Shown piece by piece: positions 20,526 through 45,254 of a stretch of DNA of 45,446 nt. The translations under genes were made by a program, and so were the position numbers. The number at the start of each line of letters is the position of its first letter. Position 1 is the stretch's first letter. The stretch spans positions 1-45,446 of the IMG/VR virus record IMGVR_UViG_3300032783_000004; one strand, 5' to 3'. This DNA comes from a virus. The notes under the pieces are model-generated. The model searched no databases and was not told the origin of the DNA. It saw only the letters and a program-made list of their open reading frames with translations.

Positions 20526-20718
20526 TATTTATAAACAAGCTGGCAACTGTATAATCTTAACAGAGGTCGAAAAGAAGAAGAAGCCATCGGTCTGGATCTT
20601 TCTTAACGATCCTCATTCCGTTACTAGCTTCCAGAGCATGGGACAGCATGGATACTTAACCGGTCAAGCAAAGAAAGTTTATGAGGTGATGCGAAATGGC
20701 GGCCAAAGGCGCACATAA
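20506..20718 (+). CDS. hypothetical protein within the sugar cassette (70 aa)
   Basis: ATG 20506 behind GAGG, overlapping the glycosyltransferase by 20 nt and the next gene by 23 nt. Begins 'MPTTLYDIYKQAGNCIIL'; later 'VWIFLNDPHSVTSFQSMG'. No family recognised; tight overlaps support it as real. Confidence 0.5.
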   Translation: MPTTLYDIYKQAGNCIILTEVEKKKKPSVWIFLNDPHSVTSFQSMGQHGYLTGQAKKVYEVMRNGGQRRT

Positions 20719-21349
20719 AGTTACGGCAGATTTTGAAAAAGCTCTGGCAGAATATACAGGGGCCCCATATGTGGTTTGTGTTGATAATTGCAGCAACGCT
20801 TTGTTTTTAGCATTGATGCACTATGGCATCAAAAACAAGGCAATATACATACCGGCCAACACCTATCCTTCTGTTCCCTGCGAGATAGTCCATGCAGGGG
20901 GGAAGGTCGATTTCTTTGCACCAAGGAAAGATGGTCTGTTAAGGGGGGCTTATCAATTATGGCCCACGCCCGTATATGACAGCGCATTAAGATTTACGTG
21001 GCAGATGTATAAGCCGAATACCTACATGTGCGTTTCGTTTACTGGCGCTAGAAAGATATTAAAGCTGGAAAAGGGTGGGGCTATTTTGACCGATGATAGA
21101 GTGGCTTATGAATGGTTCAAGAGAGCTCGATTCAGTGGTAGGCGTGAATGTTCATATCATGAGGACGTTTTCAATTTCGAGACATCTGGCTGGAACTTTT
21201 GGATGATGCCATCTATTGCAGCTCGCGGGTTGATGATGATGGAACAGTTATATGATTTTAATGGTACACCGCTAGACGTACCAGATCTTGAATTACCATA
21301 TCCGGATCTGTCACGAGCGGAACATACTATGTGGAGGGCAGCAAAATGA
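20696..21349 (+). CDS. short DegT/DnrJ/EryC1/StrS-type aminotransferase
   Basis: 217 residues, about half to two thirds of the usual 370-400. 'VVCVDNCSNALFLALMHYG' and 'YIPANTYPSVPCEIVHAGGK' match the PLP-binding region. 'CVSFTGARKIL' then 'KGGAILTDD' corresponds to the S-F-x-x-x-K-x-L...GGA strand that carries the PLP lysine. The C-terminal small domain is largely missing, and the stop overlaps the next ATG, so the truncation is built into the operon. These enzymes aminate nucleotide-linked keto-sugars. Next to a hexapeptide acyltransferase this recalls the FdtB/FdtC or VioA/VioB type pairs for N-acylated amino-sugars. Confidence 0.7.
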   Translation: MAAKGAHKVTADFEKALAEYTGAPYVVCVDNCSNALFLALMHYGIKNKAIYIPANTYPSVPCEIVHAGGKVDFFAPRKDGLLRGAYQLWPTPVYDSALRFTWQMYKPNTYMCVSFTGARKILKLEKGGAILTDDRVAYEWFKRARFSGRRECSYHEDVFNFETSGWNFWMMPSIAARGLMMMEQLYDFNGTPLDVPDLELPYPDLSRAEHTMWRAAK

Positions 21350-21882
21350 AAATAGGTAAAAATTGTAAAATTAGTGACAAGATCAGTGTGTATGGTGGAG
21401 ACAATATAGAAATAGGTGACAACACGCGCATTGATGATTTCTGTATTCTGTCAGGCGGTAGTGGTATCCAAATTGGATCTCATGTGCACCTGGCTCCATA
21501 CTGTTCTCTATTCGGTGGTTCTGGCATTATCTTTGAGGACTTTGTCGAAATCGCAGCCTATAACTATTTCACTTCTGAATCAGATGATTTTTATGGGCAC
21601 TCTTTGGTTGGCCCTACGATTCCGCGGCAATTCAAGCCCGAGGGATATAAACAGGGGCAGATCATATTACGCAAACATGTTCTTATGGGCGCCCGTTGCG
21701 TTGTTTTCCCGGGCGTGGAAATAGGCGAAGGAGTTTCGGTAGGCGCCTGTTCATTGGTGAATAAGGATCTTAGGCCTTGGACGATTTATGCCGGCATTCC
21801 TGTGCGGCCTCTCGGCAATCGCAGTAAAGACATGTTGAAATTGGAAGAAACGTTTTTGCAATGGTATAGTCAAAAAAAATAG
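21346..21882 (+). CDS. hexapeptide-repeat acyltransferase (LbH, WbbJ-like)
   Basis: 178 residues from ATG 21346 (ATGA overlap; a GTG at 21331 is less likely). Left-handed beta-helix hexapeptides run through about residues 3-70 ('IEIGDNTRIDDF', 'IQIGSHVHLAPY') and again near 120-150 ('LMGARCVVFPGVEIGEGV'). 'GIPVRPLG' near the end is the typical A-G-x-P-A-x-x-I/L-G closing motif. Such enzymes transfer acetyl groups from acetyl-CoA to sugars. It probably works on the product of the preceding aminotransferase. Confidence 0.8.
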   Translation: MKIGKNCKISDKISVYGGDNIEIGDNTRIDDFCILSGGSGIQIGSHVHLAPYCSLFGGSGIIFEDFVEIAAYNYFTSESDDFYGHSLVGPTIPRQFKPEGYKQGQIILRKHVLMGARCVVFPGVEIGEGVSVGACSLVNKDLRPWTIYAGIPVRPLGNRSKDMLKLEETFLQWYSQKK

Positions 21883-21894
21883 GCGGTCTGAACA

Positions 21895-21972
21895 ATGGAT
21901 ATAGACATAGTACAGGGCCTTGCCATAGCAATTATCTTTTTCATCTGGGCGTTGCTTTGGATGGGCAATTAA
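21895..21972 (+). CDS. micro membrane protein (25 aa)
   Basis: ATG behind AGGCGG, then a single hydrophobic helix ('IAIIFFIWALLW') ending MGN. In operon order between the acyltransferase and methyltransferase. Evidence is position plus a membrane-like sequence only. Confidence 0.4.
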   Translation: MDIDIVQGLAIAIIFFIWALLWMGN

Positions 21973-21985
21973 CTAGGAGGACATA

Positions 21986-22591
21986 ATGATTCCAATACCT
22001 GCACATTTAGAAAAACAACGGTTGGCAATGCAATCTCAGACATCCGCAAACGAAGCTAAATTCCTTTACAACGCAGTCCTCGATACTCCTTGCGGTGATG
22101 TAGTAGAAATAGGTTCAGCTACCGGAGGCACCACATTGATCCTTATCGAAGCTGCCGCACAACGGATGAAACATGTCTATTCGGTAGATCCTTATCCCGT
22201 TGAACTTGAAAATAAGGTCGATAACTATAACGAAGGCACGCTGACCCATTATAAATCAACCTTCAAGGCCAATATCTTAAATGGCCAGTACAAGAACGTT
22301 ACTCAATTTAACGTCAACCTCAAAGACTGCATTGATAACCTCCCGCGGTTTATCTCTGTGGCTTTTATAGATGGTCTGCACGAACTGGATAATGCCGTGC
22401 GCGAGTTTCATCTAATTTATCCTCTTATCGCTCCGGAGGGTTGGCTTTGTGTGCACGACATAGGATGGGGAAAGGGCCAAGTGTCGAAAACTGAGGATAC
22501 TGGCCTTTGGAAACTAATCAGTATGATAGATGTTATACAACTCTTCAAAGAATTCATGAATGTGGACCAGATGTTTTGTGGGAGGAAGTAA
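21986..22591 (+). CDS. class I SAM-dependent methyltransferase (CmcI/Methyltransf_24-like)
   Basis: 201 residues, behind AGGAGG. 'DVVEIGSATGGTTLIL' is the SAM-binding motif I, 'HVYSVDPYP' the acidic strand 2, and 'VAFIDGLHELDNAVREF' with 'PEGWLCVHD' the metal/catalytic side typical of this group of O-methyltransferases. Its place at the end of the sugar cassette suggests methylation of a glycan, but the acceptor is unknown. Confidence 0.75.
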   Translation: MIPIPAHLEKQRLAMQSQTSANEAKFLYNAVLDTPCGDVVEIGSATGGTTLILIEAAAQRMKHVYSVDPYPVELENKVDNYNEGTLTHYKSTFKANILNGQYKNVTQFNVNLKDCIDNLPRFISVAFIDGLHELDNAVREFHLIYPLIAPEGWLCVHDIGWGKGQVSKTEDTGLWKLISMIDVIQLFKEFMNVDQMFCGRK

Positions 22592-31754: not shown

Positions 31755-31958
31755 ATGGATCTTATAGCAGCAATCCAAGGATATTTCTCAACAGGCGGCT
31801 TGCTTACCCTTTGCCCGGCAGGATCGGCATGCTGGCCGGCCATCACAGATCCGGTGGTTGAATACCGAGCCCAGGACAGCGATCTTTTAGAATATATAGG
31901 ACACGATATCGAGAACGTGAGCAATAATTATAAATTACCGAGAAGGGAGAGGGCTTAA
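31755..31958 (+). CDS. hypothetical protein (67 aa)
   Basis: ATG 31755 behind AAGAGGTG. Overlaps the next gene by 1 nt (TAATG). 'MDLIAAIQGYFSTGGLL' then 'LEYIGHDIENVSNNYKLP'. Similar in style to small tail-completion-like proteins but not assignable. Confidence 0.5.
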   Translation: MDLIAAIQGYFSTGGLLTLCPAGSACWPAITDPVVEYRAQDSDLLEYIGHDIENVSNNYKLPRRERA

Positions 31959-34846
31959 TGTTCAAATCAGTTTCCATTTATGGTTCATTTAATGCAGTAA
32001 CCGGCTATGGCATTCATCTCACCAATTTTGTCAGAGAATTGGAAAAACTCATTCCCGTCATCCGCAACAAGCCAGGCGGTGAAGTGAGTATCAGCCTTCT
32101 CGACAGTGTCAGTGTCCAATACGTTAAAACTGCATGCCCGTTTCCATCTATCCTTTACAACGTCTGGGAATCAACCCGGCAGCCAGACAAATTCATGGAG
32201 AATTGTAAGAAGTTTTATCATCAACTCTGGGTACCCTCCAAGTGGCAGAAAAAATATAGCGTTGAGCAGGGGTTAGAGGATTCGTTTGTGAAGGTGGTGC
32301 CAGAGGGCGTTGACCCGGAGAAATACCAACCATTCTTATATGACAAGGATACTTCTGGACGTTTGCCAGAACCTATATTTAATTTCCTGATAGTGGGTAA
32401 ATGGGAAGACCGTAAGTACACCCGGGAAATGATTCGGGCGTGGCTTGATGCATTTCCAGAGGATAAATTCCCCTATCTTCGTTTGCATGTGAAGGCCGAC
32501 AACCCTTTTCCCGTGGACCAGTATAAAACCACAGAGCAGCGCCTTAAAGCCTATGGGTTAGAAGACAAGCGTATCATCCCCGTTCACTTCGAGAGCCAGG
32601 AATCACACATCAAGCGGCTTCAGGCAGCCGAAGTATATTTATCCTGTTCCCGTGCTGAGGGCTGGAATTTGCCATTGATTGAGGCTTTGGCTTGCGGCAT
32701 TCCTTCCATCGCACTCGATTGGTCCGGCTCTACAGAGTTCTACCATTTCACTAACCTTCTGGTCGGTGTGGAAAAGCTCATTAAGCCATTCAACGTTTAT
32801 GGCCAGCCTAATTGCCCTGGCCAATGGGCCGAGCCGAACTACCAAGATCTGAAAGACACCATCAGTGAAGTCTACGAGAAATATTCTTTTTATAAAAAGC
32901 AAGCCTTGGCGATTTCCACTGAAACCCGTGAGGAGTTCAGCTGGGCCCAGGCAGCGAAGAAAGCCTATGCGGAATTGGAAGAATTATACAAAACCATAGC
33001 TCCCAAAAAGATCATCTGTGAAATTTCCACAGAGGGTGTAAAAGAGACAACGGATGTTGTAAATAACACAATGTTCAGCCATGAAGGAAAGACACGCATT
33101 CTGCCAGATCAAGACATCTTTGTTGTCGGCGCATGGCCATCATCCCAGGACCGTATGCAGACCTTAATTGAAACAATCAGCCAGATCAAGGCGCTTGGTT
33201 ATCCTGTGATGGTATCATCTCATTATCCACTTCCCGCGCCGGTTACTGAATCCGTGGATTACTATATTTTTGACAAGGAAAATCCTTTGTCTGACGATTG
33301 GAAACTCACATACTACCGTCAAAATGAACAGGGAGAAATGGAAGCCCGTAAAGGTAACAAGCCGTACCATGCCGTTGCTTGCCTCACCGCCATGCGCAAT
33401 GCCATTGACTTCTGTAAAGGTAAATTCAGACGCATGTATTATATGGAATTCGACCTTGAGGTAGATCTTCCGGCTTGGTTGGAAAAAACAAAAGATGCAG
33501 ATGGGATTTGTTTGATAGATTATCAAGGGACTGGTTATCGTTCAGACTTTTTTGCAGGTCCTATAGATTTGTTGGATAAGGTCTTCCCGCGGATACGTAA
33601 TTGGAATGAATATTCCGCCTATTCAACTGAGAGCGGGTTTATTTTAGAAAATTGGATCAAGCAATACTGGTCAGATTATTACAAAGATGTCCCTATCACC
33701 ATGATTGAAGATATCTTACTTGGCAATCGTTTCGACCAAGTTGAGCGTGATGTCTGGGGCGATGATGTTTTTTTATGCCATTTTGTTGAGGGTCCATACT
33801 TACAGGTCAATGGAATGTCTAATCGTACATATCAAGTTTCTTTTACCACTCCTGAAGATGGCGTTATCTATCGTGCAGAAGCTAAATGCGGCACTTGGGT
33901 CCGGCCTTCAATTAAGTTCTTCCGTGAATGGCAAATTGAAGCCAAGCATGAAAATGAGGTGAAATTTTCTCATCAATTTGATGCAGAAAATCAGCGTGTC
34001 TTAATCTCTATGGGTTCCAAGGCTTTGGGCGATAATCTTGCCTGGGCGCCATATCTTGAAGAATTCCGTATGAAGCATAAATGCCATTTAATCGCTTCAA
34101 CATTTTTTAATGGCATGTTCGATTATCCTGAGTGGGAATTGGCTGAACCAGGGGATACTATTAAGAATCTCTATGCATCATTCGAGGTAGGCTGTTATGA
34201 TGGTCAGCTAAATAAAAATCCAACCGACTGGCGCTTAGTTACCCTTCAGCAAATAGCCACAGACATCTTAGGGCTTCCTTATGTTGTAAGAAAACCTAAG
34301 CTCAAGATCCCCGATACGCCCCGTAGAGTGGAAGGCAAGTATATTTGTTTTTCTGAGTTTTCAACCATGCAGCCCAAGCTCTGGAACAAGGAAAACGCAT
34401 GGCAAAGAACTATTGATTACCTTTGCTCATTAGGGTATAAATGTGTAGCTTTGGGAATGGAATCAAGCAAATTACAGAATATCATTAAACACCATGGCCA
34501 GACAATTGAAGAAAGCATTACCGACCTCCTCTACTGTGACTTTTATGTAGGCTTGGGTCACGGACCTTCTTGGCTCGCCTGGGCATTGGATAAGCCGGTT
34601 GTAATGATTTCCGGCTTCTCGTTGCCACTTGCGGAATTTGAAAATCCATATCGTGTCATTCGTACTAATGTTTGCCATGGATGTTTCAATGATCCAAAAG
34701 TAAAATTTGACCGCGGGTGGGAATGGTGTGAGAGAAAAATGTGGCAAGGTAAAAAGGTGCAGCGTTATGAATGCACCAGGAAAATCACCCCTGATATGGT
34801 GATAAAAACAATTGATCAGTTGAGGGCCGACTATAATCTGATATAA
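31958..34846 (+). CDS. three-part glycosyltransferase: GT4 domain plus TibC/BAHT-type O-heptosyltransferase domain
   Basis: 962 residues, between large terminase and portal. Residues 1-350 are a GT4 domain: 'GSFNAVTGYGIHLTNFVREL', 'WVPSKWQKKY', 'VVPEGVDPEKY', 'SRAEGWNLPLIEALACGIPS' (E-x7-E, near 232-251). A middle part (about 380-650, 'VVGAWPSSQDRMQTLIETI') I cannot name. From about 670, 'VLISMGSKALGDNLAWAPYL', 'RLVTLQQIATDILGLPYVVR', 'YVGLGHGPSWLAWALDKPV' and four cysteines (906, 909, 924, 939: VCHGC, EWCER, YECTR) match autotransporter strand-loop-strand O-heptosyltransferases (TibC/Aah), whose cysteines bind iron. Those enzymes glycosylate Ser in repeat proteins. A role on virion proteins is inference from context. 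Confidence 0.8.
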   Translation: MFKSVSIYGSFNAVTGYGIHLTNFVRELEKLIPVIRNKPGGEVSISLLDSVSVQYVKTACPFPSILYNVWESTRQPDKFMENCKKFYHQLWVPSKWQKKYSVEQGLEDSFVKVVPEGVDPEKYQPFLYDKDTSGRLPEPIFNFLIVGKWEDRKYTREMIRAWLDAFPEDKFPYLRLHVKADNPFPVDQYKTTEQRLKAYGLEDKRIIPVHFESQESHIKRLQAAEVYLSCSRAEGWNLPLIEALACGIPSIALDWSGSTEFYHFTNLLVGVEKLIKPFNVYGQPNCPGQWAEPNYQDLKDTISEVYEKYSFYKKQALAISTETREEFSWAQAAKKAYAELEELYKTIAPKKIICEISTEGVKETTDVVNNTMFSHEGKTRILPDQDIFVVGAWPSSQDRMQTLIETISQIKALGYPVMVSSHYPLPAPVTESVDYYIFDKENPLSDDWKLTYYRQNEQGEMEARKGNKPYHAVACLTAMRNAIDFCKGKFRRMYYMEFDLEVDLPAWLEKTKDADGICLIDYQGTGYRSDFFAGPIDLLDKVFPRIRNWNEYSAYSTESGFILENWIKQYWSDYYKDVPITMIEDILLGNRFDQVERDVWGDDVFLCHFVEGPYLQVNGMSNRTYQVSFTTPEDGVIYRAEAKCGTWVRPSIKFFREWQIEAKHENEVKFSHQFDAENQRVLISMGSKALGDNLAWAPYLEEFRMKHKCHLIASTFFNGMFDYPEWELAEPGDTIKNLYASFEVGCYDGQLNKNPTDWRLVTLQQIATDILGLPYVVRKPKLKIPDTPRRVEGKYICFSEFSTMQPKLWNKENAWQRTIDYLCSLGYKCVALGMESSKLQNIIKHHGQTIEESITDLLYCDFYVGLGHGPSWLAWALDKPVVMISGFSLPLAEFENPYRVIRTNVCHGCFNDPKVKFDRGWEWCERKMWQGKKVQRYECTRKITPDMVIKTIDQLRADYNLI

Positions 34847-34859
34847 GGAGGAATAAGGA

Positions 34860-37016
34860 ATGCAACCAGAAAAACCATCAGTAGATACTTTCATAGCTGG
34901 CAGAAGAGTTAGGCCCACAACACCCGACGAAAAAGATAAGATTAAGGAATTGTTTGCCGAATATGACAACCTTGAAAAACGAGATAAGGATGGCATGAGT
35001 GTTGACGAACGTCTGTCTACATTCGGTCAGCTTCTTTGGCAATATTGGGAAATCAACCGAGCTTTCAGGCGGCCAAAGGAACTTGAGTGGCTCGAATCGC
35101 TTCGTCAGTACAAGGGACTTTATGATCCTGAAATTAAGATAACTCCAGGTCTTTCCAGGGTTTATCCTAAGATCACCCGGTCAAAAGAAAATCAGATTTT
35201 GTCCCGTCTTATGGAGATGCTTTTCCCCGAGCAAGACAAAAATTGGGAAATTACTCCATCTCCTAATCCGCAGCTCCTCCCGGAAATTGTTGCAAAGATT
35301 GCGCTTTCCTTAATCACAAAAGATGAAAATGGCGAACCAGTTGTCCCCACCCGGGAAGAATTACAGCGTGCCATTATGAAATTTGCCGAAGCCCGTTGTG
35401 AACAAATGAGTATTGTCATTGATGGCCAGCTTGAGGAAATGAAGTATCAGGAAGAAGTTAAGAAAGTCCTCCGTTCCGGCATCCGTTATGGCACAGGGCT
35501 GATGAAAGGTCCGCTAATCCATAAGCGTGAATCCCGCGAATGGGTGCCCAACGTTCATAGCGGCGAGTACCGTGAAAACGTCAAATCTGAAGATGTACCC
35601 TATAAGGAACACACTCGCATTTGGGATTTTTATCCCGACATGTCCACCACGGAGCCTGAGCAGATGGATGGCTGCTTTGAACGTCACGTTTTTACCAAGC
35701 ATGATCTGCGACAATTGATGAAGCGCACGGATTTCAACGCTGACGTAATTCGTGACTATATGAAGGAGAACCCTGATGGTGATTATACACCAGAGGATTG
35801 GGAGGTCGATCTGCAAGCGATTGAGATCGAAGCCGGTACCGGAAAGGAAACTGCCGTATCTGGTTCCCCCGCATCCACCCGCCAGGCTTTTGGTTATCTT
35901 CGCAAACTCGGTAAAAAGTACATCGTCCTTGAATTCTGGGGATATGTCGATGGCGAAGATCTATCAGCTTGTGGCGAAACGGTAGACAATCCTGAACTTG
36001 AACATGGCGCCAATGTCTGGGTGATGGGTAAACGCATCATTAAAGCCAAGCTCTATGAACGTGCTTTGGAAATGTATAATTTCTTCTATTATGAAAAAGA
36101 CGAAACATCAATCTTTGGTGAAGGTCTTCCTCGTATCATTCGCCACAGCCAGTTGGCCATCGCTGCCGGCGCTCGTAAAGTACTCGATGATGCAGCAGTT
36201 ACCGGCCCACAGATCGAATGCAATTATAACCTCATGGTCCCCGGGTCAGATATCTCCGATGTCTATTCTCGTAAAATCTGGTACCGTGAAGGCCGCGGGG
36301 TTGAAGCCCAATATCCGGCAGTCCGCATTGTCAATATTGAACCTCACACACAAGAACTATTTACTATCGTCAAAGAGTTCAAAGGTTTTGCAGATGAAGA
36401 AAGCTGTCTACCTTCCTGGCTCTTAAATGACAAAAGCGCCAATGTTACAGCTCAGGCTGATTCCGGTGTACGCAGGGATATGATAATCCCCATCAAGGAC
36501 ATCGTTAAAAATTTCGATGCTTTCACCGAAAAAAATATTCGTGACCTTTATTATTGGAACATGGATTTCAACGATGACGAAAACATCAAAGGCGATTACT
36601 TAGTGAAGGCTCGTGGGGTAGGTTCTCTTGTAATGAAAGAAATCCGCATGCAAGCCCTTACACAAATGACCGGTACGCTCACAGACGAAGAACGCAAGTA
36701 CATTCCTTGGAGGGAATTCCTTGAGGAAAAAATGAAAGCCCACGACATCAATATCCAGCTCAAGACTGATGATGATGTTGCTAAAGAAGAACAGGCTAAA
36801 GTCGATCAGAGAGCTAAAGAACTTATGTATAAGGATGCGGAAGCCGAAATCGCCAAGAAGAACGCTCAGGCCCTTATTAACATAGCTAAGGCGAAAGAGA
36901 AAAACACGCAGGTCGGTCACATGGATGAATTGCACGATGTTGATATGGCCGGTAAGAAAATGGATGTTGCGCAAAAGATGGTTGATACAACCAGTAATGC
37001 ATATGGGGGTGAGTAA
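34860..37016 (+). CDS. portal protein (P22-like size)
   Basis: 718 residues, behind AGGAGG. The pattern of a helical N-terminus, 'ITPGLSRVYPKITRSKENQI', 'FPEQDKNWEITPSP', 'RSGIRYGTGLMKGP', 'TRIWDFYPDMSTTEPEQMDG', 'NFFYYEKDETSIFGEGLPR' and a long charged C-terminal coiled coil ('AKEEQAKVDQRAKELMYKDA') is typical of podovirus-type portals. Forms the dodecameric ring at the vertex through which DNA is packaged and ejected. Position after terminase and before scaffold and capsid supports it. Confidence 0.85.
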   Translation: MQPEKPSVDTFIAGRRVRPTTPDEKDKIKELFAEYDNLEKRDKDGMSVDERLSTFGQLLWQYWEINRAFRRPKELEWLESLRQYKGLYDPEIKITPGLSRVYPKITRSKENQILSRLMEMLFPEQDKNWEITPSPNPQLLPEIVAKIALSLITKDENGEPVVPTREELQRAIMKFAEARCEQMSIVIDGQLEEMKYQEEVKKVLRSGIRYGTGLMKGPLIHKRESREWVPNVHSGEYRENVKSEDVPYKEHTRIWDFYPDMSTTEPEQMDGCFERHVFTKHDLRQLMKRTDFNADVIRDYMKENPDGDYTPEDWEVDLQAIEIEAGTGKETAVSGSPASTRQAFGYLRKLGKKYIVLEFWGYVDGEDLSACGETVDNPELEHGANVWVMGKRIIKAKLYERALEMYNFFYYEKDETSIFGEGLPRIIRHSQLAIAAGARKVLDDAAVTGPQIECNYNLMVPGSDISDVYSRKIWYREGRGVEAQYPAVRIVNIEPHTQELFTIVKEFKGFADEESCLPSWLLNDKSANVTAQADSGVRRDMIIPIKDIVKNFDAFTEKNIRDLYYWNMDFNDDENIKGDYLVKARGVGSLVMKEIRMQALTQMTGTLTDEERKYIPWREFLEEKMKAHDINIQLKTDDDVAKEEQAKVDQRAKELMYKDAEAEIAKKNAQALINIAKAKEKNTQVGHMDELHDVDMAGKKMDVAQKMVDTTSNAYGGE

Positions 37017-37249
37017 TGGGAAAAGAAGACAGAGAGCGAATGCAGAAATTGGGGGAATATATCAGCGTCCTTCACGAAAACAGGGATACTCCTCTAATGT
37101 CGTATGTGCTTGCTACGCTTGAGGAGTTAGTGAACCGAGCCCGTGTAGAGAATGATGAAGCAGATCCAACTTATTTGCTCCATAATCAAGCGAAAATACG
37201 GGCCTGGAAACAAGTAATCGAATACATAGAAAAGGGGGTTCCTAAATAA
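37016..37249 (+). CDS. hypothetical helical protein (77 aa)
   Basis: TAATG coupling to the portal and to the next gene. Charged helices ('RERMQKLGEYISVLHENRD', 'IRAWKQVIEYIEKG'). Function unknown. Confidence 0.6.
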   Translation: MGKEDRERMQKLGEYISVLHENRDTPLMSYVLATLEELVNRARVENDEADPTYLLHNQAKIRAWKQVIEYIEKGVPK

Positions 37250-37494
37250 TGAAGAAAGATAAAGAGGGCATAAGCTGGGATGATATCAAACAGGGCGGTT
37301 CGCAGCATTATAAAACTGGCGGTGACGTAGAGCCGATTGATCTTATTAAAGCGTTGGGGATCTTAAAACCTTTCGCTATAGCATCTATCATCAAATATGC
37401 ATCACGTAATGCCAATAGGATAGATGTAAGTGATACTGACATCAACAAAATTATCCATTATGCACAGATGCTCAAATTCGCCAAGGAGATGTAA
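37249..37494 (+). CDS. DUF3310-like protein (81 aa)
   Basis: 'HYKTGGDVEPIDLIKALGI' and 'AIASIIKYASRNANR' then 'DINKIIHYAQMLKFA' match the DUF3310 (SaV-like) pattern of many phages. Function not established. Coupled to the upstream gene by TAATG. Confidence 0.7.
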   Translation: MKKDKEGISWDDIKQGGSQHYKTGGDVEPIDLIKALGILKPFAIASIIKYASRNANRIDVSDTDINKIIHYAQMLKFAKEM

Positions 37495-37593
37495 ATGATC
37501 GACATTTTAATCATGATAGCGTTAATGATTATAATATGTTGGTTGACTTTTGATCACGATAATGACGATCATCTTGGCGGAGGGTTTGTGTAG
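37495..37593 (+). CDS. micro membrane protein (32 aa)
   Basis: AAGGAG 7 nt before the ATG. 'MIDILIMIALMIIICWLTF' is a single hydrophobic helix, followed by an Asp/His tail (DHDNDDHLGGG). Its TAG overlaps the next GTG. Function unknown. Confidence 0.5.
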   Translation: MIDILIMIALMIIICWLTFDHDNDDHLGGGFV

Positions 37594-38039
37594 TGGGCAA
37601 TAAGGCATATCGAGACAGACATCAGGCTATGGGTTTATGCACTAAGTGTCCAAAGCCTTTAGCGCCAAATAGCATCAGTCTTTGTGTATCATGTCTTACA
37701 AATAAATTAGTACTGCAACGTACAGCACATTATCACGAAATGCAGAGGGCGAATCGTCGTCGAAGACTTAATAAGGGACAATGCCCAAGATGTGCCAATC
37801 CGGTTATCCCCGGGATGACATCTTGCAAGTCTTGCCTAAAGAAGTATAAACAAGGGAAAGTTGGATACAATCGTACAGCCCGGGCAAAATATAAATCAGA
37901 AGGACGCTGTATCGTATGCGGTCGATTTTTAGAGGGTCCAGAAAACGTAGTTTGTACTATGTGTAAAGAAAATCACCAGAAGTTAGAATATACATCACTT
38001 ATTATCAAAGGGGGCAAACGAAATGCAACGAATAGTTAG
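37593..38039 (+). CDS. triple zinc-ribbon protein (148 aa), GTG start
   Basis: Three spaced repeats of C-x2-C-x(11-12)-C-x2-C: 'GLCTKCPKP' with 'LCVSCL', 'GQCPRCANP' with 'SCKSCL', and 'GRCIVCGRF' with 'VCTMC'. Basic linkers (RANRRRRLNKG) suggest nucleic-acid binding. Similar proteins in phages lie near HNH genes, but no HNH motif is present here. GTG overlaps the previous TAG. Confidence 0.6.
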   Translation: MGNKAYRDRHQAMGLCTKCPKPLAPNSISLCVSCLTNKLVLQRTAHYHEMQRANRRRRLNKGQCPRCANPVIPGMTSCKSCLKKYKQGKVGYNRTARAKYKSEGRCIVCGRFLEGPENVVCTMCKENHQKLEYTSLIIKGGKRNATNS

Positions 38040-38859
38040 TGTAATACCAAGAGACTGTAACATACTTTTTGTAGGCGATACACATGAAGGCACTGTTTTT
38101 TTTCACGATAAGGGTTTGCGGAAGATCGTTAACCACGTCGAAAAGGACCGTGCGCACAGAAGAGTATTCCATATGGGTGATTGGATAGAAGCTATTCCAT
38201 CAGATGACAGACGCTATGACAATTCCGCGGCTTTATATAATAACCCCGGGGAACAGGCAGAAGCTATTGTCAAGCGTTTCAAATCCATTAAAAACCAGAT
38301 GCTTGGCGGGTTACATGGCAACCACGAGCGAGCTTTATATCGTATCAAAAACTTTGCCGATCAAATCTGTAAAGATCTCAACATCCCATATGGTACCGGC
38401 ATGTGTCGGCTTATATTCAATGATGACAAGGGCCGGCATTTGTTTAATGTCTTCGCTTGCCATGGCTATTGGCTTTTCAAATCCCAGGCCAAAGATCCTG
38501 AACAAGAAATGGCTAACAAAAAAGCCTCCATGAAAATGCGGCTAAAAAAACTCATGGGTGATGCAGCAGTCATGTTATGTGGCCATGCACATGAGCTGAT
38601 TGTAGCTGAACCTGTGGAGCAGCTTTATCTTACAGACGAGCCGTATGGCGTCAAACAACACTATCTGGGGCTTCCAAATAACCTATCCGGCTACATTCCC
38701 GTTGACCAACGCTTTTATGGCTGTACGGGGTCTTTACGCAAGAACCAAATGGATGGGTTTACAGACTATGCAGAAGGCTTTCCCCCTGCTGAACTGGGTT
38801 GTCTTGATTTGGCCGTAAGAGATGGCAGACCAGCAACTTTAATACCGATGAAGGTTTAA
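38023..38859 (+). CDS. calcineurin-like metallophosphoesterase
   Basis: 278 residues, overlapping the preceding gene by 17 nt, behind AAAGGGGG. Motifs in order: 'ILFVGDTHEG' (about 14-23), 'VFHMGDWIEA' (about 48-57), 'GLHGNHERAL' (about 96-105), 'ACHGYWLF', 'VMLCGHAHEL' (near 187-196). These supply the two-metal site. Substrate (DNA, nucleotide or protein phosphate) unknown. Its place between portal and scaffold is unusual. Confidence 0.8.
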   Translation: MQRIVSVIPRDCNILFVGDTHEGTVFFHDKGLRKIVNHVEKDRAHRRVFHMGDWIEAIPSDDRRYDNSAALYNNPGEQAEAIVKRFKSIKNQMLGGLHGNHERALYRIKNFADQICKDLNIPYGTGMCRLIFNDDKGRHLFNVFACHGYWLFKSQAKDPEQEMANKKASMKMRLKKLMGDAAVMLCGHAHELIVAEPVEQLYLTDEPYGVKQHYLGLPNNLSGYIPVDQRFYGCTGSLRKNQMDGFTDYAEGFPPAELGCLDLAVRDGRPATLIPMKV

Positions 38860-39058
38860 TCCATACACCCCCTAAAGCAACCCCTGATTGTGATATTTCG
38901 CAGTTGGGGGTTGTGACATCTCACAAACTGGATACTTTTTATCCACCTTCCTTGCGATATTTCACAATTTTCTTGACTTTTTCACAAAAACGTGCTATAT
39001 GACCGCCATAAAATAGTCGTGTCCTATTTCGGGACACACTTGTTCTTTGGAGGTTTTT
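38860..39058 (+). promoter_or_regulatory. control region before the capsid genes, with promoter and operators
   Basis: Contains CAACCCC/GGGGTTG (38878-38913, possible weak hairpin), GTGACA (38913-38918), the palindrome CTGGATACTTTTTATCCA (38928-38945), the promoter TTGACT (38973-38978), 17 nt, TATATG (38996-39001), and GTGTCC-N7-GGACAC (39019-39037) just past the expected start site. 'GATATTTC' also occurs twice (38892, 38956). A regulated second late promoter for scaffold and capsid is likely. Confidence 0.65.
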
Positions 39059-40069
39059 ATGGCGAATCCTACTGACAGAGGGGCGGCAGGTGAAGACAAT
39101 AGTTCTTTGGAAAGTATCGAAATCTTTAGTAATGCGTTTGATGAAGCTACGGGAGAGGGCACATCTGGGACAGACGGAACATCCGGGGTAGCGACCGGAG
39201 ATGTTTCTGATTTCAAAGGTGAGCTTCCCGAGAATTCAGACACTACGCAGTCCACTATGGGGACCCAGGCAGTATCCGGCACGGCTGGAACTTCTGGGAC
39301 GGTGTCAGCTGACGATGAGAAGGCTGAACAGAAGTACCGAACACTTCAGGGTATCCTCAAAGCGGAAAAAGATAAGTGGGAGCAAGAAAAGGCTGTACGC
39401 GATGCTGAAATAGAAAGGCTAAGGGCAGCAGGAACAGCTGGCAGGGCAACTCAAACTCAGACCTTTGACGATCCTTATATGAATTTGTCGGAAGAGGACA
39501 AGAAGGCCTTAAAAGAATACGATACGGAATATGACACGGTATCCAAGTTTGAGGCAATCAAGCGCAAAGCTGAATTAGCTGCTTTAGAAGGTAAACTGAC
39601 AACCAGCATCCGTAAAGAGTTTCAGGAGGCTTTTAATTTCCTTATTCAGTCAATGGCCCCTGTTCTTTCCACCACAGAGCAAATTTCTGATGAACGACAT
39701 TTTGGCGCCATCAAAAACAAGCATGCAGACTTTGAAAAATATCGTGACGATGGATCTATTGAAACCTGGATCAACAGCAAGCCGAAGTACCTTCGGGACG
39801 CATACGTTAGTGTTTATAACGATGGTTCTGCCCAGGACATCATAGATTTGCTCGACACGTTCAAAAAAGAAAATAACATCGGCCCCCCGGTTGTGACTGA
39901 CGCGGCTGGAACGGCTGGTACTTCTGCTGACCTCAAGCATGACAAGGAGAAAAAGAAAGAAGCCCTAGCTGGCGTACATTCTAAGAGAACTCCTACGAAT
40001 TATAGCCAGCTTGACAAAGACGATTATGCTGGGGCATTCGATGAGGCAGCGAAGAAATTATCAACTTAA
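39059..40069 (+). CDS. scaffolding-like protein with Gly-Thr-Ser repeats
   Basis: 336 residues from ATG 39059 (TGGAGG; an upstream TTG is less likely). Acidic N-terminus with repeats at about 33-43 (GEGTSGTDGTSG), 73-82 (SGTAGTSGT) and near 281-289 (AGTAGTS). A charged coiled-coil middle ('LKAEKDKWEQEKAVRDAEI') and helical C-terminal part are typical of phage scaffolds encoded just before the capsid. Repeats use different synonymous codons each time, which points to selection at the protein level. Confidence 0.65.
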   Translation: MANPTDRGAAGEDNSSLESIEIFSNAFDEATGEGTSGTDGTSGVATGDVSDFKGELPENSDTTQSTMGTQAVSGTAGTSGTVSADDEKAEQKYRTLQGILKAEKDKWEQEKAVRDAEIERLRAAGTAGRATQTQTFDDPYMNLSEEDKKALKEYDTEYDTVSKFEAIKRKAELAALEGKLTTSIRKEFQEAFNFLIQSMAPVLSTTEQISDERHFGAIKNKHADFEKYRDDGSIETWINSKPKYLRDAYVSVYNDGSAQDIIDLLDTFKKENNIGPPVVTDAAGTAGTSADLKHDKEKKKEALAGVHSKRTPTNYSQLDKDDYAGAFDEAAKKLST

Positions 40070-40086
40070 TTTAGGAGGTATTCCCC

Positions 40087-41091
40087 ATGCCAATGACCAC
40101 ATACGGTGATATTCAACCAAGAACTGCTGCATTTGTAGCAGCTGACCTTTTGAAGCGTGCCATGCCTTATCTCTGTCTGGAGAAATTTGGACAGTCACAT
40201 CCGCTTCCGGAACATAAAACAACGTCTATGATTTTTAGACGTTATAATGCTCTTGCCCTGGCAACCACAGCGCTGACCGAAGGCGTTACCCCTGCTGGCA
40301 AGAAACTAACCAAAACAGACGTACCCGTTACGCTTGCTCAGTATGGCGATTTTGTGGAGATTACTGACGTTGTTCAGGATACCCACGAAGACCCGGTTCT
40401 TCAGGAAGCCTCTGCGGTTATTTCTGAACAGGCAGCCAAGACCGTTGAAACCATCCGGTACAATGTTCTCAAAGCCTGTTCCAATGTCTTTTACGCAAAT
40501 TCGGTTGCGGCCAGAACTTCTATCGCTACCGCTCTTGTAAGAGCTGATCAGCGAAAGATAGTTCGAGCCTTGGAGCGCCAGGATGCCAACAGGTTGGTGT
40601 CCATTGTTCGTTCAACCCCCAATTTCAATACTGAAAATATTCTACCTGCTTTCGTTGGTGTTACTCATGTCGATATGACTACGGACATCCGTTCGATGAC
40701 AGGGTTTATCAATGTGGCAGATTATGGGAAGGTTTCTCCTTTCGAGACAGAAATCGGTTCCTGCGAAGATGTTCGGTACTTGAAATCCACAATATTCACT
40801 CCTTACGGTGGAGCTGGCCTTGCTGGCACAACCACTTATCTGTACTCTTTGAGTTCAGGTGGAACGAATAGCTACGATGTCTACCCGGTCATGTTCTTTG
40901 GCAAAGACGCTTATGGTCTTGTCGCCCTTAAAGGTCGATACGCCATTACCCCGATGGTTCTCAATCCTGGTATTCCCAGGGGCGGTGATCCGTTAGGACA
41001 GCGTGGTACGGTGTCATGGAAAACCATGCAGACAGCTATCATTCTGAACGATGCGTGGATGGCAATTGGCGAATTTGCTTGTACAGCTTAA
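40087..41091 (+). CDS. major capsid protein, N4-gp56 type
   Basis: 334 residues, behind AGGAGG. 'LTEGVTPAGKKLTKTDVPVT' then 'QYGDFVEITDVVQDTHEDPV' then 'EQAAKTVETIRYNVLKA' is the hallmark of the N4 gp56 capsid family (HK97 fold). 'KDAYGLVALKG' and 'DPLGQRGTVSWKT' near the end also fit. It has only a short 'GLAGTTTY' instead of the repeats of its neighbours. Confidence 0.9.
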   Translation: MPMTTYGDIQPRTAAFVAADLLKRAMPYLCLEKFGQSHPLPEHKTTSMIFRRYNALALATTALTEGVTPAGKKLTKTDVPVTLAQYGDFVEITDVVQDTHEDPVLQEASAVISEQAAKTVETIRYNVLKACSNVFYANSVAARTSIATALVRADQRKIVRALERQDANRLVSIVRSTPNFNTENILPAFVGVTHVDMTTDIRSMTGFINVADYGKVSPFETEIGSCEDVRYLKSTIFTPYGGAGLAGTTTYLYSLSSGGTNSYDVYPVMFFGKDAYGLVALKGRYAITPMVLNPGIPRGGDPLGQRGTVSWKTMQTAIILNDAWMAIGEFACTA

Positions 41092-41120
41092 CATTGACCA
41101 CATTAAGGAGGTAACAAACC

Positions 41121-41771
41121 ATGACGGATACTTTACTGTATAGCAACACAAAGAAATTTGACGATCCGGCAGTAACTCAGGATGCTGCTGTGAAACGGGT
41201 CGATAAAGGTTTTGAGATGGAGGCAATGCGAAGAGCACTTGCCAGCATCACAAACAGGGTCATTCCTACCTCAGCGGGTGGGACGACAGGCACCGGGTAT
41301 GAGCTCACCGCAGGTTTGGCAGCTGGTTCCGCAGTTGGTTCCATTAAAGCGGCCAACACCTTCAAATATACTATTGATGGCGTGATGTATCAGTACACCG
41401 GAAATACCGACATTGCCATCGCAGGTTCTCTCGGAAACGGTACACAGGGTACAGCCACCACCTGTTATTACCTTGTCAGCGTTGGCACCAATGGCACCAG
41501 CGGGACAGCACTTGCCGGCAATGGCGGTCTGTACGTAACAAAGGGCAATGAAGGGACTTCGGGGACCGGCGTGTTTGCTTATGCGCTCAATTCCACCCCG
41601 TATCTACCGGATTGTCCTGATGGGCAGTGTCCGATAGGGTATTTTTCGGTGATCACAAAAACCACCACACCTTTTGTTCCCGGTACTTCAACGATGGGAG
41701 ATTCGACAAACTTTACCATCGCCTATGGCGATTTGATAGGGATGCCGATTTTCAAGTACGCTGAAGACTAA
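41121..41771 (+). CDS. capsid-associated protein with Gly-Thr-Ser repeats (possible decoration protein)
   Basis: 216 residues, behind AGGAGG, directly after the capsid gene. A helical N-terminus ('EMEAMRRALASITNRVIP') leads into a beta-rich body with 'GGTTGTGYEL', 'VGTNGTSGTALAGNGG' (about 121-136) and 'GNEGTSGTGVFAY' (about 142-154). Position after the major capsid protein and the beta-rich, Gly/Thr-rich composition suggest a head-surface or head-fibre protein. Confidence 0.5.
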   Translation: MTDTLLYSNTKKFDDPAVTQDAAVKRVDKGFEMEAMRRALASITNRVIPTSAGGTTGTGYELTAGLAAGSAVGSIKAANTFKYTIDGVMYQYTGNTDIAIAGSLGNGTQGTATTCYYLVSVGTNGTSGTALAGNGGLYVTKGNEGTSGTGVFAYALNSTPYLPDCPDGQCPIGYFSVITKTTTPFVPGTSTMGDSTNFTIAYGDLIGMPIFKYAED

Positions 41772-41792
41772 TAGTTAAATAGTGCAAAATCA

Positions 41793-41827
41793 TACCAGTA
41801 GGTCGGGACATTCTCGACTTACTGGTA
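41793..41827 (+). terminator. strong hairpin after the capsid genes
   Basis: 16 bp stem with two G-T pairs and a 3-nt loop (TACCAGTAGGTCG... pairing to 41812-41827), then CCTTTAT. The short U-tract suggests partial termination, or an RNA-processing or stability element that raises capsid over tail expression. Confidence 0.6.
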
Positions 41828-41854
41828 CCTTTATAAACCAATGGAGGCAACACA

Positions 41855-42238
41855 ATGGCTAAAGATGCAAAAGAGGGCGTAAAGCCAGAAGAAAAACCAA
41901 AGGTCGAAAAGTTTATCAATCCGCAGGGGCACATCCGGGATAGGATTATTATGCACCAGACAGCTGATATCCCTAAACAGGGTGCATTTATTTCACTCAA
42001 TGGTTATGCTTTCCAAGCGAAGCCCGGGGAGGCAATCGACATCCCTCGTCCTGTGCGAAAGATGATTGATCTTTGTGTCATCACGGAAATTATTCAGGGT
42101 ACTGATGAAAAAGGTAACTCTGAAGAATATACTCGTAACCGGCCCCGTTATCCCTATACTCTTGTCGCTGAAGATATAGAGCATCCGGATTCTCCATGGG
42201 CAGGTGCTAAACAAGCAGAAGTGGAGGCTCAGGCATAA
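41855..42238 (+). CDS. hypothetical structural-region protein (127 aa)
   Basis: Behind GGAGG. N-terminus charged; 'INPQGHIRDRIIMHQTADIP' and 'FISLNGYAFQAKPGEAIDIP' form a beta-rich middle; C-terminal helix. In N4-gp56-type phages a small protein of this kind follows the capsid. Function unknown. Confidence 0.55.
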   Translation: MAKDAKEGVKPEEKPKVEKFINPQGHIRDRIIMHQTADIPKQGAFISLNGYAFQAKPGEAIDIPRPVRKMIDLCVITEIIQGTDEKGNSEEYTRNRPRYPYTLVAEDIEHPDSPWAGAKQAEVEAQA

Positions 42239-42239
42239 A

Positions 42240-42980
42240 ATGATAGGCCAGGATCTCGTAGACGAACTGCGGGAAAGTTATCTTGACGATAAACAGATTC
42301 CATATCGCTGGCAGGACCTTGAGCTTCTAAAAAATTGTATTCGTGCTGAAGTACAGGCATGTAGACGAGCATATCTTATCATTGACAAGACCACCGTCGC
42401 TGATGGGACTGACGGTACATCTGGTGATCCTATATGCCAGTTGACTGTTGTTCCTAATCAAGCAGCTTATACGCTCAGCAAAAAAGTCCTGCAAGTTGAA
42501 CGGGTAAAACTCGATGGCATGAGTACACCATTGCGTCCACGTACCCGCGATGAACTCGATGCTCTTACGTATCAATGGGATGTTACCCTTGGGACGTCCG
42601 GCACTTTTGGAACTGCCGGTGGTGACATTGTTGTATGGCCACAATGGTTTATACACGAAGCCAATAAAGAGTTAGTTTTAGTCAAGACGCCTACCGTTAA
42701 TAGCGTTGCAAGATTAGTCGTATCCAGGCTGCCGCTTCAAGAATTTACATTAAAAACTGAACCAGAAATAGAGGAACAGCACCATGACGGATTGCTTTTA
42801 TGGGCCGCTCATCTTGCTTTTCTCAAACCTGATTCTGACACTCAAAACATAGACCTGGCAGCAGTTTATGATAAGGCATTTACAGACAGATTCGGACCAA
42901 TGCCTGATGCTTATTCCGAAAAGATGAGGAAGATGCTTCCTCGTCAACAGCGAATGAGACCCAGGCCATTTGGTAGTTAA
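42240..42980 (+). CDS. head-tail adaptor-like protein (DUF6682-type) with Gly-Thr-Ser insertions
   Basis: 246 residues from ATG 42240. N-terminal helices ('DLELLKNCIRAEVQACRRAY'), a beta region ('QAAYTLSKKVLQVERVKLDG'), and 'EFTLKTEPEIEEQHHDGLLLW' with 'LAFLKPDSDTQN' match adaptor proteins of podovirus-like phages. Two short repeats sit at likely loops: DGTDGTSGD (about 55-63) and LGTSGTFGTAGG (about 117-128). Confidence 0.6.
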   Translation: MIGQDLVDELRESYLDDKQIPYRWQDLELLKNCIRAEVQACRRAYLIIDKTTVADGTDGTSGDPICQLTVVPNQAAYTLSKKVLQVERVKLDGMSTPLRPRTRDELDALTYQWDVTLGTSGTFGTAGGDIVVWPQWFIHEANKELVLVKTPTVNSVARLVVSRLPLQEFTLKTEPEIEEQHHDGLLLWAAHLAFLKPDSDTQNIDLAAVYDKAFTDRFGPMPDAYSEKMRKMLPRQQRMRPRPFGS

Positions 42981-42994
42981 TAGGAGAAAATCAC

Positions 42995-43174
42995 ATGGCT
43001 ATCGTAAGACAAAGAAGATTAGAAGAAGACCTTATCTATCGTAGAACTACTGAGTTGCCCAGAAAATTTGGTTCGGATGGTACTTCAGCAGCTGCCGGCA
43101 AAAGCGGTACAAGTGCGGTATCGGGGTCATCTGGGTCATCCGGCTCGTCCGGTAGTTCAGGCACAGGCGCATAA
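42995..43174 (+). CDS. small Gly-Ser-repeat protein, paralogue of the next gene (59 aa)
   Basis: TAGGAG before the ATG. 'MAIVRQRRLEEDLIYRRTTE' resembles the N-terminus of the next gene (I-x-R-x-R-x-L-E-E-D-L...T-x-E-L). After residue 27 come 'SDGTSAAAGKSGTSAVSG' and SGSSGSSGSS-type repeats. The two lie 14 nt apart, a tandem duplication. Probably virion-associated by context. Confidence 0.65.
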   Translation: MAIVRQRRLEEDLIYRRTTELPRKFGSDGTSAAAGKSGTSAVSGSSGSSGSSGSSGTGA

Positions 43175-43188
43175 GGAGGAAATACATA

Positions 43189-43371
43189 ATGGTTATTAAA
43201 AGAATAAGACAACTTGAGGAAGATTTGCTTAACCAGACTACAATTGAGTTATCCGCGGTTGCCGGTACGTCGGGGACTTCTGGCAGCTCCAGCACCTCCG
43301 GATCGTCAGGGACAGCAGGATCATCCGGTACTTCGGGTTCATCTGGAACAAGCGGAACTTCACATCCATAA
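43189..43371 (+). CDS. small Gly-Thr-Ser-repeat protein (60 aa)
   Basis: Behind AAGGAGG. 'MVIKRIRQLEEDLLNQTTIE' (helical, probable docking part), then 35 residues of Gly-Thr-Ser, Gly-Ser-Ser and Gly-Thr-Ala triplets, e.g. 'AGTSGTSGSSSTSGSSGT'. The triplets are spelled with many different codons. The Gly-x-y periodicity is collagen-like. Ser/Thr density would make it a good O-glycan acceptor. Confidence 0.7.
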   Translation: MVIKRIRQLEEDLLNQTTIELSAVAGTSGTSGSSSTSGSSGTAGSSGTSGSSGTSGTSHP

Positions 43372-43416
43372 TAGCGTATGAGTTACGCCACTGAGCCGGC
43401 TAAAATAGGAGGCAGT

Positions 43417-43653
43417 ATGTGCAGTATTCGGATAGAAATATTGGGTGATGAAACTTATACGGTTGAAGTCACCCTTGAAAAACCTGCCGATGGAAATAAA
43501 AAAGAAGATTACCCCCGACATGTGTCTAAGGAATTTTCTGCTCAAGACATCGAGGAAGTCAAAAGTCTTATAGACGAGTATCTTCCTCATCTAAAACCAC
43601 GGGCAGAAGTTGCAGAGTTTGATGAGGCTTTCAGTCAGGCCACCAAAGATTAA
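43417..43653 (+). CDS. hypothetical protein (78 aa)
   Basis: ATG 43417 behind TAGGAGG; an upstream ATG (43378) lacks such a site. 'MCSIRIEILGDETYTVEVTL' is a beta hairpin; helix 'SAQDIEEVKSLIDEYLPHL'. No family recognised. Confidence 0.55.
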   Translation: MCSIRIEILGDETYTVEVTLEKPADGNKKEDYPRHVSKEFSAQDIEEVKSLIDEYLPHLKPRAEVAEFDEAFSQATKD

Positions 43654-43670
43654 AATGGGGGACATCGGCT

Positions 43671-44057
43671 ATGTTAAAAAACTTTGCCCTTACTCGGGGG
43701 GATGTCGGTAACTATACCATCACCATTACGGATGGCAACACTCCGTATGATATTTCCAATTGGTATGTCATATTCACATTAAAGACATCCTACGATCTGC
43801 CTGACACTGATTTAACTTTTCAGAGAATCATTGGTCCAGGGCAACACTCAGATCCCGTCCATGGGATTACTACTCTAACTCTTCACCCTATTGATACGGC
43901 TTTGCTTGCATCCAGAATTTATGATTACGATCTTGTGGTCATTACAGATGCTGGTGATCCGTACACCATTTTGAAGGGCAAGTTCGATTTGCAATATGAC
44001 GTTAATTGGGATCATACCACATCCGGTACAGCTGGAACTGCTGCTACGATTCCATAA
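43671..44057 (+). CDS. baseplate/tail-like beta-sandwich protein with C-terminal GTA repeat (128 aa)
   Basis: 'LTRGDVGNYTITITDG' and 'YDISNWYVIFTLKTSYD' then 'YDYDLVVITDAGDPYTILKG' recall the N-terminal Ig-like domain of upper baseplate (BppU-type) proteins. The last 13 residues are 'TTSGTAGTAATIP'. Tail or adhesin attachment is likely but not certain. Confidence 0.5.
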   Translation: MLKNFALTRGDVGNYTITITDGNTPYDISNWYVIFTLKTSYDLPDTDLTFQRIIGPGQHSDPVHGITTLTLHPIDTALLASRIYDYDLVVITDAGDPYTILKGKFDLQYDVNWDHTTSGTAGTAATIP

Positions 44058-44068
44058 GGAGGATAGAT

Positions 44069-44470
44069 ATGGCAAACCATACTTTAACATCTAACTCGGG
44101 AGTTGTAACTGGCTCCGCTGGAAGTGCCGGTACGGGTGTTATAACTATTACATTTCCGGCCATCTATAATAAAAAACTTGGTGGATTTTTATATGTTCAG
44201 ATGTACGGTACCTGCGCCTTAGTGTTGACCCCGAACGTTATCAATAAAAGGCTAAGTGGCACAGCTCAGTACAATGTTGGTTTTGGAACAGCTGGTGTCT
44301 TAGGCAGTTTCGGGACATCAAACATTACCATCGGAGGAGGCAATTGGAATACTCGAATTCCTCTTCAGGTTACACCAAATGAAAATTCAATCGTTATTAG
44401 CGCTGCTTTTGGAGCAGGGTCTGGTGGTGTAGCTGTTATAGATTACGAGGCCCAGGGAGATTTCCAATAA
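44069..44470 (+). CDS. Gly/Thr/Ser-rich beta protein (133 aa)
   Basis: ATG 44069 behind AAGGAGG. Repeats near the N-terminus (VVTGSAGSAGTGVITI) and mid ('FGTAGVLGSFGTSNITI'). All-beta appearance; likely a virion surface protein (tail spike or fibre accessory). No family recognised. Confidence 0.55.
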   Translation: MANHTLTSNSGVVTGSAGSAGTGVITITFPAIYNKKLGGFLYVQMYGTCALVLTPNVINKRLSGTAQYNVGFGTAGVLGSFGTSNITIGGGNWNTRIPLQVTPNENSIVISAAFGAGSGGVAVIDYEAQGDFQ

Positions 44471-44747: not shown

Positions 44748-45254
44748 ATGTTGGCTTTTTATAACCTTATTCCCAAATGGCTGCTTCTTATTATGATAGC
44801 GGCTCTTTTAGTGTCTGGTATTTTTGTTGGCATTAAGATGGAGTATTACAAAATTGATAATGCCAAACTGACCAACGATAATAAGATTTACGCTGACAAC
44901 GAAAAAGTATACCAGGCTGAATTATTAACGTGTCAGCAAAGTCTTCAGGCTGAAGCGAACAATGCTCAACGGACTGAAGCAATTCACAAGGATACATCTC
45001 AGTATAATGATGAAATTAAACAGATTTGCGTGAAGGAGGAGGGCAATGAAAAAACAGATATTAAGGATGCAATTGCTGAGAGCAATAAGTTGTCTGTTCG
45101 TTTTAATTCTGCTGGGCTGCGGGGCGCCGACCAAAGTGATCAAAACGGAGCAAGTGGTAAATTGTACGTGGCCCCTTCCACCTACTCTGACTATGACCCC
45201 GGACACGGCAACAGTGGCGCAAACGATCCAGGACCTATTAAAAGACAAAAATAA
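44748..45254 (+). CDS. inner-membrane spanin (Rz-like)
   Basis: 168 residues. An N-terminal membrane anchor ('PKWLLLIMIAALLVSGIFVG', about 9-28), then a charged coiled-coil periplasmic part ('LTNDNKIYADNEKVYQAELL'). The o-spanin gene starts inside it in another frame, the classic Rz/Rz1 layout. It spans the periplasm and fuses the membranes at lysis. The C-terminal 60 residues are Gly/Ser/Pro-rich, as expected where two frames overlap. Confidence 0.7.
   Translation: MLAFYNLIPKWLLLIMIAALLVSGIFVGIKMEYYKIDNAKLTNDNKIYADNEKVYQAELLTCQQSLQAEANNAQRTEAIHKDTSQYNDEIKQICVKEEGNEKTDIKDAIAESNKLSVRFNSAGLRGADQSDQNGASGKLYVAPSTYSDYDPGHGNSGANDPGPIKRQK

Follow-up and report, generated by a model that had tools for sequence, protein, structure and literature searches.

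A phage-encoded fused TibC-type glycosyltransferase and its association with Gly-[Thr/Ser]-x motifs: a candidate O-glycosylation system for virion proteins

Bacterial autotransporter heptosyltransferases (BAHT) of the TibC/AAH type act on TibA and AIDA-I, and TibC modifies serine, not threonine, in its known substrates (PMC4358343). A D110A variant of TibC is catalytically inactive, a K230A variant is deficient in sugar binding, and residues Cys339, Cys342, Cys358 and Cys370 form an iron finger (PMC4358343). We analyzed a phage relative of these enzymes encoded by IMGVR_UViG_3300032783_000004, a whole IMG/VR record of 45,446 bases that perhaps covers its genome only partly, and that we refer to as the window. 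The window carries a gene for a 962-amino-acid fused glycosyltransferase (31958..34846, plus strand) among its head and tail genes, and several of its late proteins contain short Gly-[Thr/Ser]-x motifs. Phage-encoded O-glycosylation of virion proteins on such portable sites is the best explanation of these features, and in our judgment probably the correct one.

Two other systems provide partial parallels. In mycobacteriophages, glycosyltransferases encoded by the phage are believed to glycosylate its capsid and tail proteins, the glycans sitting at C-termini (Freeman et al. 2023, as cited in PMC12619734). The likeness lies in phage-encoded transferases that would, in the window too, serve the phage's own virion proteins. 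The portion of that account cited in PMC12619734 includes neither BAHT enzymes nor acceptors with Gly-Thr-Ser repeats, and the window differs from what is cited there in that its capsid protein is free of motifs, whereas adaptor, neck and fibre proteins carry them. Gly-x-y repeat proteins are also found in the Bacillus protein BclA, a collagen-like glycoprotein with anthrose-tipped glycans, and among the glycosylated collagen-like proteins of mimivirus (PMC9614988). Glycans lie on the particle surface in those cases, as is predicted for the window, which, like pathways for acylated amino sugars, also has a DegT-type aminotransferase and a relative of the 3vbi-3vbp acyltransferase. However, the window has Gly-Thr/Ser-x repeats without proline and a TibC-type enzyme, whereas mimivirus modifies hydroxylysine. 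Long proline-rich Gly-x-y runs of the BclA type were not found, as the runs in the window have only 2-7 triplets, and in the Gly-Thr/Ser repeat proteins of BAHT loci proline amounts to about 1% at position 2.

The window enzyme is like TibC/AAH in family score, fold, and catalytic and iron-finger residues, and in having a candidate substrate that is a repeat protein encoded nearby. Its C-terminal module (residues 604-958; 33767..34831, plus strand) was delimited using a hidden Markov model, PDB matches, alignment and an AlphaFold model. Residues 623-954 score 243 bits against TIGR04414 (hepto_Aah_TibC), whose curated cut-off is 200 and against which relatives mostly score 200-355 bits, with a few lower, and these residues match TibC crystal structures in the PDB at 1e-46. 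TibC is also the top match of the AlphaFold model (4rap; template-modelling (TM) score 0.85; 378 alignment columns for 381 residues), which includes the N-terminal barrel as well as the catalytic domain. In the alignment, D692 corresponds to TibC D110, the position mutated to alanine in 4rb4, and K807 to TibC K230, while all four iron-finger cysteines are kept as C906, C909, C924 and C939; each of these residues is invariant in 15-16 phage homologues. The C-terminal module is a complete TibC/BAHT domain. Its gene lies inside the head-tail block, between TerL (30289-31743; phrog_2, 5e-29) and the portal gene (34860-37016; phrog_332, 3e-18), and thus the initial annotation, which had described a glycosyltransferase with a TibC/Aah-like C-terminus at this place, was right on both counts.

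The window enzyme differs from TibC/AAH in being phage-encoded among head-tail genes and in its fusion to two further transferase modules. The N-terminus (residues 1-345; 31958..32992, plus strand) is a GT4 module of GT-B fold (PF20706, 43 bits; PF00534 and PF13692 above cut-off; phrog_2170, 5e-28), as initially proposed, but residues 379-608 (33092..33781, plus strand), which had been lumped with it, form a separate GT-A-like domain. This segment has no family match in the family search. Modelled alone with AlphaFold, it reaches a mean local confidence (pLDDT) of 89 and a predicted TM score (pTM) of 0.86, and Foldseek relates the model to GT-A enzymes such as the GT6 enzyme BoGT6a (TM about 0.5). 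Homologues include a standalone gene in a relative of the window (L005). Because a single chain holds three transferase modules, the arrangement suggests an assembly line in which a first sugar is attached and then extended.

A scan for relatives with a single protein found none, and the query had to be built from four aligned phage BAHT domains. With this query, IMG/VR yielded at least 587 related stretches; 80 loci were taken from them and dereplicated at 80% identity. Proteins containing five or more G[ST][STA] triplets, here called GTS proteins, are encoded in 33 of the 54 dereplicated BAHT loci and in none of 113 random viral loci, which were retrieved by searching for two arbitrary DNA words (Fisher 6e-21); among loci of at least 8 kb, the counts are 33/51 and 0/57. 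When three loci from phage records are included, 35 of 57 BAHT loci are positive, and the two genes are at most 1 kb apart in 22 of these 35, compared with a mean of 6.4 and a maximum of 14 in 2000 trials of random placement. The association also holds in reverse: TIGR04414 is found in 21 of 48 contigs, each 27 kb or longer and picked solely by a GTS-coding DNA pattern, versus 0 of 71 random records (Fisher 3.5e-9 with only 57 controls counted). A closer control is provided by phage glycan gene clusters that are marked by a short DegT aminotransferase and have no BAHT gene nearby; GTS proteins occur in 3 of 66 such loci (Fisher 5.5e-12 versus BAHT loci). In a tree of 60 BAHT domains, GTS neighbours are present on all deep branches and at least 11 changes are forced, so the association does not reflect one lineage counted repeatedly. 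The pairing of enzyme and motif is real at the genome level.

Relatives of the window, found via its capsid protein, show the same pairing. Structural genes with motifs are present in all BAHT-containing whole records (L263, L264, L266, L278 and L280/L005), and these records also encode long GTS stalk proteins, except for the truncated L005/L280. More distant relatives that have portal and capsid genes and no BAHT gene (L272, L274-L277) have neither motif-bearing structural genes nor GTS stalks; L262 was left out of this comparison because its contig stops after the capsid gene. In the window's tail adaptor (SU10_adaptor, PF24175, 3e-16; 42204..42980, plus strand), the sequences GTDGTSG and GTSGTFGTAG (42591-42617) are inserted at two loops. 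Gly-Thr-rich inserts occupy the same two loops in 5/5 homologues from BAHT-containing phages, whereas the residues are simply missing in 3/3 homologues from phages lacking BAHT. The enzyme gene itself changes place: it resides in the TerL-portal interval in the window and L005, and follows the tail genes in L264, L266 and L278. Co-occurrence of repeats and transferase across phages, which the initial annotation had put forward as a check, is thus borne out by both locus surveys and by the adaptor.

The pairing is also found in two bacterial genomes. The TIGR04414 cut-off is exceeded in only 2 of 369 gammaproteobacterial genomes, a rate that is slightly inflated because one of the two was the search centre and had been found by a BAHT scan, although the pairing is unaffected. 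In both genomes (L304/L434 and L439), a standalone BAHT gene adjoins a gene for a small GTS-repeat protein with a signal peptide and a lipobox-like cysteine. These lipoproteins (L304 9135-9563 and L439 2084-2422) are built almost entirely from repeats of GTSGTA or GTSGTT, and their pairing with BAHT is independent of a fibre-gene context.

Within the window, in-phase Gly-[Ser/Thr]-x runs that satisfy a strict criterion are found in 7 of the 22 genes of the 29.0-45.3 kb block, compared with a mean of 0.27 and a maximum of 3 motif genes in 2000 residue shuffles. At least eight late repeat proteins had initially been counted; seven stand, and the eighth would be a doubtful open reading frame (29624-30025) that does not pass. 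In a six-frame scan, all runs but one are in the frame of a late plus-strand gene, the exception being a 26-amino-acid frame at 13.9 kb. We ruled out a DNA-level repeat element: synonymous codons are mixed, nearly all runs are in late coding frames, and the tandem-repeat program TRF gave nothing of note over GTS genes. Mixed synonymous codons and the lack of a notable DNA tandem repeat point to selection on protein, and the motif excess is maintained by selection at this level. An antisense reading of the repeats (Asp/Glu-Val-Pro) was likewise rejected, as the sense frame holds the adaptor fold in phages and the lipobox signal peptide in bacteria; the antisense frame is invariably open, since GGN-ACN-TCN read in reverse contains no stop in it.

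Other motif-bearing proteins, all encoded on the plus strand, surround the adaptor. The putative scaffold (39047..40069) contains GTSGTDGTSG, GTAGTSG and GTAGTS (39158-39184, 39278-39295 and 39908-39925 in the six-frame scan); its homologue in L005 also carries motifs, those of other relatives have few or none, and a motif-rich scaffold is thus restricted to the window and L005. The same scan located GTTGTG, GTNGTSGTA and GTSGTG in a 216-amino-acid protein after the capsid gene (41121..41771), whose homologues in BAHT-containing relatives have GT-rich sites at shifted positions. Two small proteins of 59 (42995..43174) and 60 (43189..43371) amino acids have basic N-termini followed by GSS/GTS and GTS/GSS tails, respectively. 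Counterparts of the latter follow the adaptor gene in L266 and L278, and apart from these we found outside the window no N-terminal anchor common to all GTS proteins. A 128-amino-acid protein (phrog_1084; 43671..44057) has a C-terminal GTAGTA tag (44025-44042), and its homologues end in GTAGTA or GTAGTG and have an internal TSGTSGSA insert. Finally, a 133-amino-acid protein (44069..44470) with an N-terminal GSAGSAGTG (44111-44137) is encoded at the position of the long GTS-stalk fibre genes in L263, L266 and L278.

In the GTS proteins encoded at BAHT loci, 8096 triplets were counted; threonine occupies position 2 in 58% of them and serine in 30% (88% together), and therefore the hydroxyl residue is concentrated at this position, with threonine favoured. 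Position 3 is serine in 64%, asparagine in 21% and aspartate in 4%, and proline accounts for about 1% at position 2 and <1% at position 3. No autotransporter is present among the window proteins scanned, so that in place of a strand-loop-strand partner modified on serine the candidate substrates are Gly-Thr/Ser-x proteins. The window proteins examined include no heptose-donor enzyme, so that the presumed donor, ADP-heptose, would come from the host, and the initial idea of a self-contained system is not supported. One phage with both BAHT and GTS genes (the record of L104; L553 9226-9714) encodes HldE domain II, a heptose-1-phosphate adenylyltransferase, at 183 bits versus a curated cut-off of 181.5.

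A possible sugar-modifying cassette for an amino sugar is located at 19701..22591 (plus strand). It comprises a 274-amino-acid putative transferase without a family match, a short DegT-type aminotransferase with its lysine apparently shifted from the usual position, a hexapeptide acyltransferase closely related to PDB 3vbi-3vbp (1e-47), and a methyltransferase. The 3vbi-3vbp structures are those of AntD, an acyltransferase of anthrose synthesis. Because a short DegT gene co-occurs with BAHT in 9 of 28 records (0 of 71 controls), an acylated amino sugar is plausible as the outer sugar. Short DegT is not an obligate partner of BAHT, which is nearby in only 14 of 80 DegT loci, though enriched by record. 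The short phage DegT-type aminotransferase (L468-L547), of about 215 amino acids, has at least 566 related stretches in IMG/VR and is often accompanied by a hexapeptide acyltransferase.

We propose that the product of the 962-amino-acid gene is a protein O-glycosyltransferase with three modules, of which the TibC-type module would add the first sugar, probably heptose from host ADP-heptose, to the hydroxyl of Gly-[Thr/Ser]-x in newly made structural proteins of the phage, namely the tail adaptor, neck and tail proteins, small tailed peptides and fibre stalks. This sugar could then be lengthened into a short glycan by the chain's other two modules, GT-A-like and GT4, perhaps with an amino sugar completed by the cassette at 19.7-22.6 kb. 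Gly-[Thr/Ser]-x would act as a portable acceptor site that may be inserted into surface loops, added to C-termini or expanded into long fibre stalks. From these genomes we infer the transfer itself, the residue and sugars, the glycans on virions and their purpose, which might be shielding, stability or adsorption. We also lean, if only slightly, toward a wider view in which BAHT fusions are dedicated multi-step transferases for portable Gly-[Thr/Ser]-x sites, forming a widespread O-glycosylation system of unrelated phages and a few bacteria that acts on fibres, necks and lipoproteins, with some phages supplying a heptose-donor enzyme.

Several observations weigh against O-glycosylation by this enzyme. 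No BAHT is detected in 27 of the 48 GTS-repeat contigs, where repeats are equally long, and 25 of these 27 have no GT4 gene either. Such contigs may be incomplete, yet several exceed 60 kb, and thus the repeats have their own structural use or other enzymes serve them. Conversely, 21 of the 54 BAHT loci have no long GTS protein in the DNA covered. Scaffold, head, adaptor and tail proteins had all been expected to be decorated; adaptor inserts do track the transferase, but the major capsid protein (40087-41091) has no motif and the scaffold is not part of the mature virion. Threonine is dominant and some sites lack serine (GTAGTA), unlike the Ser-only sites known for TibC. In addition, the BAHT-containing Microcystis phage Mel-JY01 infects a cyanobacterium. 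Cyanobacterial lipopolysaccharide (LPS) often lacks heptose, and therefore the donor may differ.

The contigs with equally long repeats and no BAHT raise the alternative that GTS repeats are purely structural, as flexible linkers or polyglycine-II/collagen-like stalks in fibre and neck proteins, and that BAHT co-travels with fibre genes in host-interaction modules and acts elsewhere. Glycine recurs strictly at every third residue, as it does in collagen-like or polyglycine helices, but proline is rare in the triplets, unlike in collagen. We consider a purely structural role unlikely, as it leaves unexplained the loop inserts in a folded adaptor of BAHT-containing phages only, the C-terminal GTAGTA tags, the fibre-free bacterial pairs of BAHT and GTS lipoprotein, and the scarcity of GTS proteins in glycan clusters without BAHT. 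Phage glycosyltransferases often target host LPS or DNA, and the enzyme might instead act on the host, modifying its LPS core, some other surface glycan or a surface protein, thereby blocking superinfection or changing a receptor, with virion proteins not being substrates. The relationship of the BAHT fold to GT9 LPS heptosyltransferases and the fused GT4 module fit such a role, which we nonetheless find quite improbable given the specificity of TIGR04414 over GT9 families, the conservation of the iron finger on which the protein-modifying dodecamer depends, the linkage of BAHT to repeat proteins and the location of the window gene inside the head-tail block. Very little weight falls on the remaining alternative, that the repeats are glycosylated mainly by a host enzyme or another phage enzyme, with BAHT just one among several interchangeable transferases, for although many GTS-repeat phages lack BAHT and mostly GT4, BAHT usually adjoins the repeat gene where present, and no alternative enzyme family was found to recur beside GTS genes in contigs without BAHT.

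The late block is ordered TerL, 962-amino-acid gene, portal, scaffold, N4-gp56-type capsid (304 bits versus a cut-off of 60), SU10-type adaptor, more neck and tail genes, and a spanin-like pair of overlapping genes (44748-45254 and 45046-45333). A lipobox-like LILLGC is present in the second frame of this pair, which suggests a Gram-negative host. Elsewhere in the window (25831-28145, minus strand), an Amidoligase_2-type protein and a class-II glutamine amidotransferase-like protein are encoded next to each other and may form a pair that makes peptide bonds. In the Mel-JY01 record (PP395634.1), where enzyme and GTS-repeat genes are neighbours, a GTS-repeat protein (L002 1-3049) seemingly spans the record start, continuing from an open frame at the record end; the depositors annotated an antisense coding sequence over it and labelled the BAHT fusion 'methyltransferase FkbM'. 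A second GTS-repeat gene of this phage (L002 9143-9983) is seemingly split into two overlapping frames, possibly through a frameshift or sequencing error.

A search of the open-access literature, with most subscription journals and preprints outside its scope, found no description of this system. TibC-type enzymes occur in at least 587 phage stretches, and large Gly-Thr/Ser repeat proteins with no known role are encoded near most of those examined. Should the two indeed be enzyme and substrate, a function would be assigned to both at once, and protein heptosylation would extend beyond bacterial adhesins to virus particles. A simple sequence rule would then predict which virion proteins are glycosylated, and the fused enzyme would represent a compact one-gene glycosylation tool.

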